Shown in pieces: positions 4,586 to 12,000 of a DNA stretch of 20,653 nt. Below the pieces are notes generated by a model. It saw only the letters and a list, made by a program, of their open reading frames with translations, was not told the DNA's origin and ran no database searches. Source of the stretch: a virus; IMG/VR virus record IMGVR_UViG_3300035130_000011, positions 1 to 20,653 of that record, one strand, 5' to 3'. The position numbers and the translations under genes were made by a program. How positions within the stretch are numbered: position 1 is the first letter of the stretch; every line of letters starts with the position of its first letter.

Positions 4586-4596
4586 GCCAAATATTG
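4586..4596 (+). repeat. direct repeat GCCAAATATTG, right copy
   Basis: This is the second copy of the 11-bp repeat. Its last three bases are the TTG start codon of the minor head gene, and GAGG (4583-4586) just upstream supplies that gene's ribosome binding site. Confidence 0.8.
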
Positions 4597-5424
4597 CCAC
4601 GTTACCTTACAGGTCAGACGCGAGAACGTGAGGCGCAAATACAGCGTCGAATGCAGGCTGTCTTGGAACGGCAGTATCAGCGCGTGATAGCGGCAGAGAT
4701 CAGGCGGCAGATGGAGCAATACCTTGCTGCGTTTGAGCAGACCCGCTTTGTGCCTTCAGACACAGAGATGAATCTACGTCGCTTCACGGCTATCTATGCC
4801 GATATGACAGAGGCAAGCATTCGCACGTTTGGTATTCGTATCGTTGAACAGGGAAAGGCAATTGGAGAAATCGAGACAAAGCAGATCGAGGGCTTCGCTG
4901 CATTCTTTGCGCGCTTGGCTGCCGAGTGGATCGCGCAGGAGCTTATCCGCCGCAGGATCACCAGCGTCACAGAGACCACGCGAGAGCAGATCGTTTCTCA
5001 GGTGGCTAAGGGGCAGGAGCAAGGGCTAGGTGTAAGTGCCATCGCCAAGGCCATCAGGGACAAGATCCCGGGCCTTTCACGCTGGCGCGCTGCTGTTATC
5101 TCCCGCACAGAAACACATGCTGCCGCAAACTATGGCGCGCACGAGACGGCCAAAAGCACTGGGCTTGATCTAGTCAAGGAATGGGTATCTTTAGAAGATC
5201 ACCGCACCCGCGACTTTGGACAGGGTGACGGTGTTATTGATGAGTATGACCACAGGGCCATGGATGGACAAACTGTAGATATGAATCAGCCGTTCCAGAT
5301 GCCGCATATTACTGGTGATTTTGTGCAGTGTCAGTTCCCCGGCGATCCTTCACTGCCTGCTGCGGCGTCGATAAATTGCCGATGTGCATCTGTCCAAGCG
5401 GTTAAGGACTTTCTTGACGGCTGA
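4594..5424 (+). CDS. minor head (head morphogenesis) protein, SPP1 gp7 / Mu F-like
   Basis: These proteins bind the portal vertex and assist head assembly, and some are injected with DNA. The first 150 residues are helical and rich in Arg, Gln and Glu (REREAQIQRRMQAVLERQYQ). The conserved domain is C-terminal: ISRTETHAAANYGAHE near residues 168-183, KEWVSLEDHRTRDF near 195-208, DHRAMDGQTV, and the final INCRCASV, all hallmarks of the SPP1 gp7 family. The start is a TTG with GAGG (4583-4586) 7 bases upstream; the first in-frame ATG would remove 19 residues. The TTG probably replaced an ancestral ATG now used by the preceding small gene. It ends 5 bases from the stop of a gene on the other strand. 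Confidence 0.9.
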   Translation: MPRYLTGQTREREAQIQRRMQAVLERQYQRVIAAEIRRQMEQYLAAFEQTRFVPSDTEMNLRRFTAIYADMTEASIRTFGIRIVEQGKAIGEIETKQIEGFAAFFARLAAEWIAQELIRRRITSVTETTREQIVSQVAKGQEQGLGVSAIAKAIRDKIPGLSRWRAAVISRTETHAAANYGAHETAKSTGLDLVKEWVSLEDHRTRDFGQGDGVIDEYDHRAMDGQTVDMNQPFQMPHITGDFVQCQFPGDPSLPAAASINCRCASVQAVKDFLDG

Positions 5425-5429
5425 TCTAG

Positions 5430-5579
5430 CTACAGTAGCAAAACAGCGTATATCGCAAAGCATGCCGCGAACGGAGTTGCCTTCCATATTTTCCCACATC
5501 TGAGGTAATGCATTGCCACGCCAAATGATGTTCCGAAAGCGAACCATTGGGCCTCGTGTGAGGCGATAATGTCTATCAC
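5430..5579 (-). CDS. 49-aa hydrophobic small protein, second gene of reverse-strand pair
   Basis: This minus-strand frame starts at GTG (5579-5577), overlapping the TGA of the upstream 68-aa gene as GTGA, and ends at TAG (5432-5430). The product begins MIDIIASHEAQWFAFG and has two hydrophobic stretches, roughly residues 12-25 and 36-49, the second ending FAIYAVLLL at the C-terminus, so it may be membrane-bound. It has no clear ribosome site of its own; the 4-base overlap implies translational coupling. It fills the space up to 5 bases from the convergent minor head stop. Hydrophobic small phage proteins include superinfection-exclusion factors and holin-like proteins, but nothing here selects one. 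Below the usual length cut-offs for gene callers. Confidence 0.55.
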   Translation of the reverse strand: MIDIIASHEAQWFAFGTSFGVAMHYLRCGKIWKATPFAACFAIYAVLLL

Positions 5580-5782
5580 AGCGGCGCGCCAAGCTGACGC
5601 GAGATACTTTCGACCTGCTCATCTGTTAGTTCAATCTCAACAGTGGCAAATTCGTTCGCTACAGTTAGCGTGTAACCTTTTGAAGAAGTATTTGGTAAAG
5701 TCCTGACATCGCCATTACTGTCCTCTTTAGTTACGTCAACAAGATTCAGGCCATCAATGGTAATTACTGCATTCGGATTCAT
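5576..5782 (-). CDS. 68-aa hypothetical protein, first gene of reverse-strand moron-like pair
   Basis: This gene runs against all others in the window. Its ATG (5782-5780) has a full consensus ribosome site, AAGGAGGT, 6 bases upstream, stronger than most late genes here. The acidic product begins MNPNAVITIDGLNLVDVTKE and looks beta-rich, with a C-terminal helix (LTDEQVESISRQLG). No membrane span or known motif is seen. The DNA is visibly more A/T-rich than the head genes around it. It sits between minor head protein and protease, an interval normally empty in this type of phage. A separate promoter, opposite strand and different composition fit a moron expressed independently of lytic growth, perhaps in the lysogen; that role is inference. 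Confidence 0.8.
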   Translation of the reverse strand: MNPNAVITIDGLNLVDVTKEDSNGDVRTLPNTSSKGYTLTVANEFATVEIELTDEQVESISRQLGAPL

Positions 5783-5788
5783 GGCAGT

Positions 5789-5796
5789 ACCTCCTT
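5789..5796 (-). promoter_or_regulatory. strong ribosome binding site AAGGAGGT
   Basis: On the minus strand AAGGAGGT lies 6 bases before the ATG of the 68-aa gene. It is a complete anti-16S match and is the best evidence that this reverse-strand frame is translated. Confidence 0.8.
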
Positions 5797-5798
5797 AG

Positions 5799-5828
5799 AT
5801 TATCATAGTATGCCATGCGTTCGTGCAA
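5799..5828 (-). promoter_or_regulatory. candidate sigma70 promoter for the reverse-strand gene pair
   Basis: Reading leftward, TTGCAC (5828-5823) is followed after 18 bases by GATAAT (5804-5799); the overlapping TATGAT (5807-5802) is another possible -10. The leader would be very short, placing the ribosome site near the RNA 5' end. The -35 matches the consensus only in its first three bases, so this is a candidate only. Confidence 0.4.
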
Positions 5829-5852
5829 TCCAAAACACTAAACCAGTAGACT

Positions 5853-5880
5853 TTGCAACTTTACATAGCCGTGCTATAGT
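5853..5880 (+). promoter_or_regulatory. promoter P1 for protease and capsid genes
   Basis: TTGCAA (5853-5858), a 16-base spacer and TATAGT (5875-5880), with TG one base before the -10 (extended -10). The spacer holds an inverted repeat ATAGC-CGT-GCTAT (5865-5877). The same layout, including the surrounding CTTTGCAACTTT, recurs before the tail tube gene. Transcription would start near 5887, about 22 bases before the protease ATG. Confidence 0.65.
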
Positions 5881-5882
5881 CC

Positions 5883-5897
5883 TGCAAAGTTTGCAAA
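5883..5897 (+). promoter_or_regulatory. operator-like palindrome at P1 start site
   Basis: TGCAAA-G-TTTGCA (5883-5895) is a perfect 6-1-6 palindrome, overlapping the 8-bp palindrome TTTGCAAA (5890-5897). It covers the expected +1 of P1, a typical repressor position. It also forms an inverted pair with TTTGCAACTTT over the -35. Confidence 0.5.
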
Positions 5898-5908
5898 CCG
5901 AGGCGCAA

Positions 5909-6700
5909 ATGCCAAATCCGAGATCTGGTGAAAACCGCGACGACTGGCTGGAACGGTGTATGGCCGATCCTGAGCAGCGCGCGTCTTTTCCTGACAGTGA
6001 TCAGCGCTACGCGGTGCGCGTTTCCAAGTGGGATGAAAAGTCTATGCACTACAAATCCATTCCGTTCGAACTGAAGCGAGAGCCTGATCAAGACGGGACT
6101 ATTGAGGGGTACGCCAGCATTTTCGATGTTGTTGACAGCGGCATGGACGTTGTTGCCCCTGGGGCGTTTCGTAAGTCAATCGGCAGCGGTCGCAAGGTTC
6201 GGATGCTTTGGCAACACGATCTTGGCGAGCCTATTGGCGTATGGGATGAGCTTCGCGAGGATGACCGTGGTCTGTATGTAAAAGGCCGCATCTCCAAGGA
6301 GGTTCGGCGCGGTGCAGAGGCCATGGCGCTTTTCCGCATGGGGGCAATGGATAGCCTTAGCATTGGATACCGAACCATCTCAGCAGAGCCTGAAGGCGGC
6401 GGCAGGGTGCGGAAAATTACAGAGGCGGAGCTTTGGGAGGTCTCAGCAGTAACCATCCCAATGAATGAACACGCCATTGCGTCGGTTAAATCAATCGACT
6501 GGAACAACAAACGAGATATTGAGGCTGGACTACGTGACGTGTTCGGCCTCTCTCAAGACGAAGCCAAAGCGTTTATTGCGGATGGCTTCGGTGGACTTGC
6601 TGCGAAACGTGACGTGGACAAGCAAGGTCTGGAACCGGAGGCGGTTAAATCGCTTCTCGACCAAATCGGACAGCTTACAAGGAGCATTCAAAATGTCTGA
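5909..6700 (+). CDS. prohead protease, HK97 gp4 type (U35/S78), with N-terminal extra domain
   Basis: This serine protease trims the capsid delta domain and itself during maturation. ATG 5909 follows GAGG (5900-5903) and lies downstream of P1; upstream in-frame starts would lie before the promoter. Residues 1-42 (opening MPNPRSGENRDDWLERCMAD, ending DSDQRYAVRVSKW) match a short motif often attached to phage head proteins, GE-x-x-DDF-x-x-RCM then FPD-x-x-QR-x-AV-x-x-W. The protease domain runs from about 50 to 190: GYASIFDVVDSGMD, H103 in LWQHDLGEPIG, S151 in MDSLSIGYR, and E174/E177 in EAELWEVSAVTIP, the expected catalytic positions. The 263-residue length is slightly above the family's usual size. 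It overlaps the capsid gene by 8 bases. Confidence 0.92.
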   Translation: MPNPRSGENRDDWLERCMADPEQRASFPDSDQRYAVRVSKWDEKSMHYKSIPFELKREPDQDGTIEGYASIFDVVDSGMDVVAPGAFRKSIGSGRKVRMLWQHDLGEPIGVWDELREDDRGLYVKGRISKEVRRGAEAMALFRMGAMDSLSIGYRTISAEPEGGGRVRKITEAELWEVSAVTIPMNEHAIASVKSIDWNNKRDIEAGLRDVFGLSQDEAKAFIADGFGGLAAKRDVDKQGLEPEAVKSLLDQIGQLTRSIQNV

Positions 6701-7991
6701 ACATGATCCCGACCTGCAACAGGTCACAAAATCCGTCGCTGCACTGAATAAGGTGTGGGAAGAGCGCAAGGCCGCAGACGCCGAGATGGCAGAAGAGGTC
6801 AAGAAATTCGGCCAGGAGCTGCCGGAAACCAAGGCTAAGATCGATAAGATGGAAGCCGATATGGAGCGCTTCCAGAAGATTGCAGACGAGGCTGTGCTTG
6901 CAGCAAAGCGGCGCGCCAATGTTGCAACCGATGCGGACGGAAATGAGGTTGATCTGGACGCAAAGGCCCTGAAGTGGGCAAAGTCCATTCGTCTCGACCG
7001 CCACGTCGATAACTTCGATGCAGAAGGTATGGCGCAATACAAGGCTGCGTTTAATAGCTTTCTCCGCAACGATGAGCGCAAGCTGAGCGGTGATGAAATC
7101 AAAGCGCTGTCTGTCGGCTCTGATCCTGATGGCGGCTACACCGTCCACCCGGATATGTCTGGCCGCGTTGTCACCAAGGTCTTCGAGACGTCCCCCATGC
7201 GCGCGTATGCTTCCATTCAGTCCATCTCTACAGATGCACTTGAGAACCTGTATGACGACAATGAAGCGACCGTAGGCTGGGTTGGCGAAACCGCATCGCG
7301 TCCGTCCACTGACACGCCTGAGATCGGCAAGTGGCGCATTCCTGTGCATGAGCTGTACGCAAACCCTGCGGCCACTCAGAAGATCCTGGATGATTCCGAG
7401 ATCGACATGGAGGCTTGGCTGGCAATGAAGGTTGCCGACAAGTTCGCTCGTGAGGAAAGCGCACAGTTTGTTGCTGGAGATGGCATCAACAAGCCGCGTG
7501 GCTTCCTTGATTACCCTGACGGCACTGATCTGCGCACCAGTATCGAACGCTTCAACACTGGCGTTAACGGTGATTATGCTGCGGCCCCTAATGGTGGAGA
7601 TGTTCTGATCAATGCACTGTACGGCCTCAAAGCACAGTACCGGGCAAATGCGACTTGGTTTATGAACCGCGCAACCACTAAGCTGACCCGTAAGTTGAAG
7701 GACAGTGACGGTGCCTATCTGTGGTCCCCTGGCATTGCCGCAGGTCAACCTGCAACGCTGCTGGGTTATCCTGTTGCCGCGTTTGAGGACATGCCTGATC
7801 CCGCGACTGGGTCTCTGTCTGTGGCGGTCGGTGACATGCGCACCGCCTACCAAATCGTTGACCGTATCGGAATCCGCGTTCTGCGCGATCCGTACACCAA
7901 CAAGCCCTACGTCCATTTCTACACCACCAAGCGCGTCGGCGGTGACGTGATTAATGGCGAGGCGCTTAAATTGGTTGAGTTCAGCGCATAA
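6693..7991 (+). CDS. major capsid protein, HK97 gp5-like
   Basis: This is the 432-residue shell subunit. AAGGAG (6679-6684) lies 8 bases before ATG 6693, which sets the start inside the end of the protease gene. Residues 1 to about 115 are charged and coiled-coil-like (for example ELPETKAKIDKMEADMERFQ), the scaffolding delta domain removed by the protease. The mature part probably begins around ALSVGSDPDGGYTVHPDMSG, and carries family signatures KWRIPVHELYANPAATQKIL, AQFVAGDGINKPRGFL, FMNRATTKLTRKLKD and the C-terminal DRIGIRVLRDPYTNKPYVHF. Whether it makes the HK97 Lys-Asn crosslink cannot be told from sequence alone. A stable hairpin follows the stop. Confidence 0.95.
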   Translation: MSEHDPDLQQVTKSVAALNKVWEERKAADAEMAEEVKKFGQELPETKAKIDKMEADMERFQKIADEAVLAAKRRANVATDADGNEVDLDAKALKWAKSIRLDRHVDNFDAEGMAQYKAAFNSFLRNDERKLSGDEIKALSVGSDPDGGYTVHPDMSGRVVTKVFETSPMRAYASIQSISTDALENLYDDNEATVGWVGETASRPSTDTPEIGKWRIPVHELYANPAATQKILDDSEIDMEAWLAMKVADKFAREESAQFVAGDGINKPRGFLDYPDGTDLRTSIERFNTGVNGDYAAAPNGGDVLINALYGLKAQYRANATWFMNRATTKLTRKLKDSDGAYLWSPGIAAGQPATLLGYPVAAFEDMPDPATGSLSVAVGDMRTAYQIVDRIGIRVLRDPYTNKPYVHFYTTKRVGGDVINGEALKLVEFSA

Positions 7992-11542: not shown

Positions 11543-11546
11543 CGCT

Positions 11547-11574
11547 TTGCAACTTTGCTAATCGGTGGTATGTT
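11547..11574 (+). promoter_or_regulatory. promoter P2 for tail tube and tail genes
   Basis: TTGCAA (11547-11552), a 16-base spacer and TATGTT (11569-11574) with TG one base upstream. The -35 region CTTTGCAACTTT is identical to that of P1. Transcription would begin near 11581, about 20 bases before the tail tube ATG. Inverted TGCTAAT/ATTAGCA arms (11556-11562 and 11583-11589) flank the -10. Confidence 0.6.
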
Positions 11575-11575
11575 G

Positions 11576-11583
11576 TTTGCAAA
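11576..11583 (+). promoter_or_regulatory. operator-like TTTGCAAA palindrome at P2
   Basis: The 8-bp palindrome TTTGCAAA covers the expected transcription start of P2, as the same 8 bp does near P1. A 9-bp direct repeat CGCTTTGCA (11528-11536 and 11543-11551) adds further TTTGCA boxes on the upstream side. Confidence 0.45.
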
Positions 11584-11601: not shown

Positions 11602-12000
11602 ATGGCTGCTCAAAAAGGTCGCGACCTACTCGTGTTGAAGAACGCAACGGCCATTGCTGGCCTTCGTGAAACGTCAGTTGCCGTTGATGGTTCCCCCATC
11701 GATATCACCAACAAAGGCGACAGCGGATATCGAACACTCGCCAGCTTTTCTGGGTCGGAAAGCATCGATATCACAGGGTCTGGCGTTTGGGAGGACGATG
11801 TGATGCGCGCAATTGCATTCTCAGGTACCGGCACCACAAAGCTCCTTACGGATATCACATTGGCATGGGGTGATGGCGCAACGCTTTCCGGTGACTTCTA
11901 TCTTGCGAGCTGGACAAGCGCTGGCAACCACGATGGTGAAGAGACCTATGACACGACACTACAATCGTCCGGGGCCTGGACGTACACGGCAGCCGTGTAA
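11602..12000 (+). CDS. major tail (tube) protein
   Basis: The 132-residue protein should polymerise into the tail tube. Its plan, MAAQKGRDLLVLKNATAIAG, SPIDITNKGDSGYRTLASFS, IDITGSGVWEDD and LSGDFYLASWTSAGNHDGEE, is that of the TP901-1-type tail tube family. AGGAGG (11591-11596) lies 5 bases before the ATG, and a dedicated promoter precedes it, matching the large copy number needed. Followed by the chaperone genes and tape measure, the canonical order. Confidence 0.9.
   Translation: MAAQKGRDLLVLKNATAIAGLRETSVAVDGSPIDITNKGDSGYRTLASFSGSESIDITGSGVWEDDVMRAIAFSGTGTTKLLTDITLAWGDGATLSGDFYLASWTSAGNHDGEETYDTTLQSSGAWTYTAAV

Follow-up and report, generated by a model that had tools for sequence, protein, structure and literature searches.

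Why two small frames should face leftward in the head-gene region of an otherwise rightward phage operon, and whether either is a gene, are the questions raised by this locus. The window, an IMG/VR virus record of 20,653 bases, is apparently a fragment carrying the packaging and structural half of a genome, and Pfam matches of the neighbouring genes (Phage_Mu_F, Peptidase_S78, Phage_portal, Phage_capsid, Terminase_6C) identify the surroundings. The features at issue are the following.

4594..5424, plus strand: MuF-type minor head protein gene (PF04233, E 2.9e-11; alignment of relatives), left border of the cargo site
5430..5579, minus strand: ORF2, 49 aa, GTG start, hydrophobic C-terminal end, GTGA overlap with the ORF1 stop; doubtful gene
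5576..5782, minus strand: ORF1, 68 aa, ATG start, perfect SD, coding score reached by no spurious frame; likely a real accessory gene
5789..5796, minus strand: AAGGAGGT, ribosome-binding site of ORF1, 6 nt ahead of its ATG
5851..5898, plus strand: putative late promoter/operator of the protease-capsid block, with TTTGCAA repeats around TTGCAA-16-TATAGT (5853-5880), between ORF1 and protease
5909..6700, plus strand: prohead protease gene (S78; PF04586, E 3.5e-32; start by comparison with relative L011), right border of the cargo site

The two family matches place the frames between minor head protein and protease, as a first-pass annotation of the same DNA had proposed; its description of some 30 rightward genes holds for their direction, the number counted being about 27. 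The protease alignment of L011 begins at MPTPRAGETRDDFLDRCM, equivalent to the window codons from 5909, and this position is most likely the protease start, rather than the mechanical ORF start at 5810. The non-core interval between MuF and protease would thus be 5425-5908 (484 nt). Further downstream, the 508-aa capsid frame as listed (6465-7991) runs over most of the tail of the protease gene; the capsid gene probably begins close to MSEHDPDLQQVTK (about 6695), 3' of an AAGGAG site, as in relative L002.

The case for ORF1 as a gene begins with its ribosome-binding site. The perfect AAGGAGGT site reported earlier for the first gene is present at 5789-5796; the motif occurs twice in the window, this being its only occurrence in start position, and the SD of no rightward gene exceeds 6 of 8 matching bases. 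Coding potential was scored with codon frequencies trained on 26 rightward genes, each gene being scored leave-one-out, and compared with a control set of 115 spurious frames, each 45 codons or longer. The log-likelihood of ORF1, +0.097 per codon, falls within the range of real genes (0.04-0.23) and is reached by none of the 115 spurious frames. ORF1 is therefore likely to be a real gene. Scored on synonymous codons alone, it lies just under the lowest real gene, and its G+C content of 44% places it in the lowest 3-4% of 207-nt windows, a modest difference that agrees, for ORF1, with the earlier statement that this DNA is A/T-richer. The low synonymous score and the base composition would fit a recent foreign origin.

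ORF2 presents a different picture. Its codon score of -0.044 is under that of every real gene and is reached by 6% of spurious frames, making the second member of the supposed pair doubtful; it additionally has no SD, and its region gives no Rfam match and no unusually stable RNA fold. The last 19 residues are hydrophobic, with a hydropathy maximum of 1.75 (mean over 19 residues), and ORF2 is accordingly read as either a coupled small membrane protein or no gene. Of the coupled pair in the first-pass annotation, the two minus-strand frames and their GTGA overlap stand, and the status of ORF2 as a gene is doubtful.

Neither product matches a family at cut-off in Pfam, PHROGs, PADLOC, or NCBIfam, in keeping with the earlier remark that both are unfamiliar, and neither frame gives an HTH (Aca) family match. 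A weak TIG match (E 0.014) lies below its own cut-off and was rejected, and a single-sequence AF2 model of ORF1 (pLDDT 55) is too poor for a fold search. Nothing was recovered for either frame from PDB sequences, phage records (as DNA and protein), or the 29 related records, nor from IMG/VR, bacterial genomes, or 395 genomes of the family to which a related Rhodobacteraceae MAG belongs; the scans of IMG/VR and of genomes depend on short exact peptides and may miss distant relatives.

More is learned from what relatives carry at the same place. In a survey of 46 non-redundant relatives, anchored on MuF and protease matches, the distance between the two genes ranges from overlap to 2,457 nt, with cargo that differs and faces forward or in reverse; the matches lie 150 nt or less apart in 25 of the 46. 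The clearest comparison is provided by L111 and L112, whose identity is 94.7% on the side ending at the MuF stop and 98.2% on the side that begins just ahead of the late promoter. Exactly between these points, L111 (8777-9667) carries about 630 nt more than L112 (4134-4395). L113 (1680-3047) and L110 (1126-1399) show the same filled and empty states at the MuF-late promoter site. Among the cargo, L021 carries small forward genes and L113 a forward ParB-like/DUF6551 gene, and the HNH gene of L162 lies in reverse. L116 (1233-2693) and L130 (3601-5109) have in common a forward pair encoding 252-aa (phrog_4652) and 164-aa proteins, to which L130 adds a reverse 88-aa gene (5476-5742), and in L117 three small reverse frames that overlap one another lie at 1913-2525, between MuF and protease. 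In the cultured distant relatives P12026, Pq0, and 1N2-2 no gene is annotated at the junction, and a Desulfofustis phage record has two. Judged by these comparisons, the MuF-protease junction is an insertion hot spot. The moron-like insertion proposed earlier thus gains support: the suggested comparison of whether relatives hold other genes or none at this spot was made and came out positive, some of the genes facing in reverse.

Several candidates were set aside in this survey. The reverse gene of L128 (8798-9632) proved to be a capsid fragment accompanied by a second small reverse frame and was left out of the cargo tally, the contig being possibly rearranged or misassembled, and in the L148 type the 479-nt gap is taken up by a protease extended at its N terminus. 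The middle reverse frame of L117 gave a by-eye impression of an HTH protein that neither Pfam (CI repressor, E 0.21) nor Foldseek confirmed, so that a parallel to acr-aca arrangements is not claimed.

Forward cargo in relatives resembles an insulated unit. In L111 and L113, on a by-eye reading, a hairpin and a promoter-like TTGACA-16-TATTGT site open the cargo, and ahead of the late promoter stands another hairpin, this one with a T run; a terminator scan finds such sites ahead of the late promoter in L021, L114, and L144, and in L130 downstream of the forward cargo. The window cassette, unlike this cargo, is reversed and has no recognisable terminator. The scan of 5300-6000 gave no terminator-like site, so by the definition in PMC4378225 the cassette resembles a moron in its location and is not a canonical one.

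The tolerance of the junction for cargo may be explained by the element that follows it. Immediately upstream of the protease, TTTGCAA direct repeats sit over the -35 of the predicted promoter at 5853-5880, TG precedes its -10 (an extended -10), and TTTGCAAA follows. In many relatives the same arrangement stands upstream of the protease: TTTGCAA[C/G]TTTGC, a short spacer, then GTGNTATAA, and usually TTTGCAAA. One pattern matched 34 sites among relatives, all on the coding strand and some of them from near-duplicate contigs, and at least three TTTGCA/TGCAAA words occur at the junction in 19 of 46 non-redundant relatives. Allowing up to 2 mismatches, the window contains just two sites, compared with a mean of 0.04 in shuffles, the other being:

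11545..11583, plus strand: second copy of the TTTGCAA late promoter, preceding the major tail protein gene (11602-12000; phrog_1407)

Downstream second copies are also found in L011, L121, L123, L124, L129, L133, and L137. These positions suggest that a regulated promoter drives the capsid and tail proteins, which are made in large amounts. In the literature searched, the exact TTTGCAA words that were tried gave no match, and this widely shared promoter of capsid genes is apparently undescribed so far. Gene I of phage Mu, which we take to be the protease gene, as in the D3112 annotation, offers a point of comparison. Mu likewise has several internal late promoters (lys, I, P, and mom) for separate late blocks, one of which serves gene I, just as the protease here has its own (PMC4461284). 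The promoters are comparable in use and differ in sequence, the TTTGCAA direct repeats belonging to the present phage. Because the downstream block, judged by conservation only, owns a late promoter, an insert at the junction need not cut capsid expression, and the site would tolerate cargo for that reason.

Accessory genes recur at the boundary between the head-gene blocks in phages of quite different kinds, as two examples illustrate. In Pseudomonas phage D3112, the anti-CRISPR gene acrF2 occupies the corresponding interval, with the MuF/G genes on one side and the protease on the other; the interval belongs to a plasticity region of low G+C (PMC4378225). D3112 and other Mu-like Pseudomonas phages share with the window small orphan genes of low G+C that vary among relatives; the genes of the D3112 region, however, follow the direction of the late operon, whereas those of the window are reversed and have no HTH partner or sequence similarity to them. 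An aca partner is likewise missing from many acr loci. The locations and composition of such loci vary (PMC9410906). In the lytic phage SPP1, the morons ORFs 8-10 lie, like the cargo of the window, between the portal/gp7 block and the capsid block, with transcription signals on either side (PMC6316719). SPP1 differs in belonging to another phage group and in that its segment also carries a replication origin.

Taken together, these observations are best read as a horizontally acquired accessory cassette at the MuF-protease junction, a reading held with good confidence that extends to the cassette and not to its function. The cassette would sit where two blocks of the late operon, portal/MuF and protease/capsid, meet at a recombination-tolerant junction. 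ORF1 would be translated leftward from its strong ribosome-binding site, and its transcript would probably be independent of the late operon; transcription apart from that operon would allow ORF1 to be made early in infection. The promoter candidate of the first-pass annotation was not confirmed by comparison with shuffled sequence: the best leftward sigma-70-like match upstream of ORF1, at 8 of 12 bases, is equalled by 37% of shuffles.

The lack of a leftward promoter match above chance and of a terminator bears also on the foremost alternative, in which the locus holds no functional gene and is a decaying or new, unselected insert, the features of ORF1 being chance or remnant and ORF2 going untranslated. 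The lack of detectable relatives for either frame and the resemblance of the ORF2 codon score to spurious frames point the same way. Against this, the perfect SD of ORF1 and its gene-like score are unmatched among spurious frames, phage genomes carry little spare DNA, and the junction of relatives holds real genes. A non-functional insert is unlikely on balance, even as the best-placed of the competing explanations.

The lifestyle of the phage group is relevant to a further alternative, and to the earlier proposal that the genes serve the lysogen. A screen of 29 related records gave no tyrosine integrase, and one of 17 gave no serine recombinase (resolvase), several of the records measuring 33-40 kb; control genomes gave matches, the related records may be fragments, and the window lacks its other half. 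HTH_3 matches above cut-off occur in 2 of the 17 related records. In three relatives of 37-40 kb, the non-structural regions encode a helicase, a primase, SSB, and RecE/Sak4/Rad52-type recombination proteins, together with several DNA methyltransferases and a Mom protein. This content speaks for a non-integrating, DNA-modifying phage group, within the bounds of records that may be fragments and a window that holds one half. The DNA methyltransferases and Mom suggest pressure from host defences.

A pair for lysogenic conversion or superinfection exclusion, its leftward genes on in the repressed prophage and ORF2 acting in the membrane, would account for the opposite orientation of the frames and for the hydrophobic end of ORF2. 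It has a precedent in Pseudomonas phage Fc02, where small exclusion proteins are expressed against the lytic operon; olg1/sie1 encodes a protein of 7.9 kDa transcribed, in the orientation of ORF1, against that operon (PMC9936078). The Fc02 gene, however, adjoins the repressor of a temperate phage, and neither repressor nor integrase is seen in the window, nor an integrase in the records of its relatives. The absence of integrase and resolvase from the related records screened, a leftward promoter match no better than chance, and the lack of coding support for ORF2 leave use in the lysogen unsupported and make an exclusion pair improbable. A virion protein, decorative or internal, is the least probable reading, very much an outside chance: the location among head genes, a beta-rich (low-confidence) model of ORF1, and the decoration-like gene that Mu-like phages carry as an accessory close to the protease (PMC4378225) could be cited for it, but ORF1 faces away from the late promoter and so would not be made with the capsid.

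Within the preferred reading of an acquired accessory cassette, the anti-CRISPR gene at the same site in D3112 and the DNA-modification genes of relatives make counter-defence or host interaction the likeliest single guess for ORF1, ranked over an improbable lysogen exclusion and a very improbable virion decoration. That ORF1 is a small host-interaction or counter-defence protein is thus a tentative proposal, possible rather than probable. A bolder version, in which ORF1 is the first known member of a new counter-defence family and the TTTGCAA operator sets its expression against that of the capsid genes in a divergent early/late switch, under a late regulator as yet undescribed and common to many uncultured phages, would be a long shot.

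ORF1, and maybe ORF2, would on these grounds be orphan accessory genes of a familiar kind, and the late promoter is the more interesting neighbour of a modestly interesting orphan gene. The MuF/protease junction, home to an anti-CRISPR in Mu-like Pseudomonas phages, recurs as an accessory site in an apparently non-integrating environmental lineage. The recurrent layout in relatives, namely MuF, cargo, terminator, late promoter, and protease, may serve as a guide to new host-interaction genes, and the conserved TTTGCAA promoter offers a handle on late-gene control in phages that have no close cultured member.
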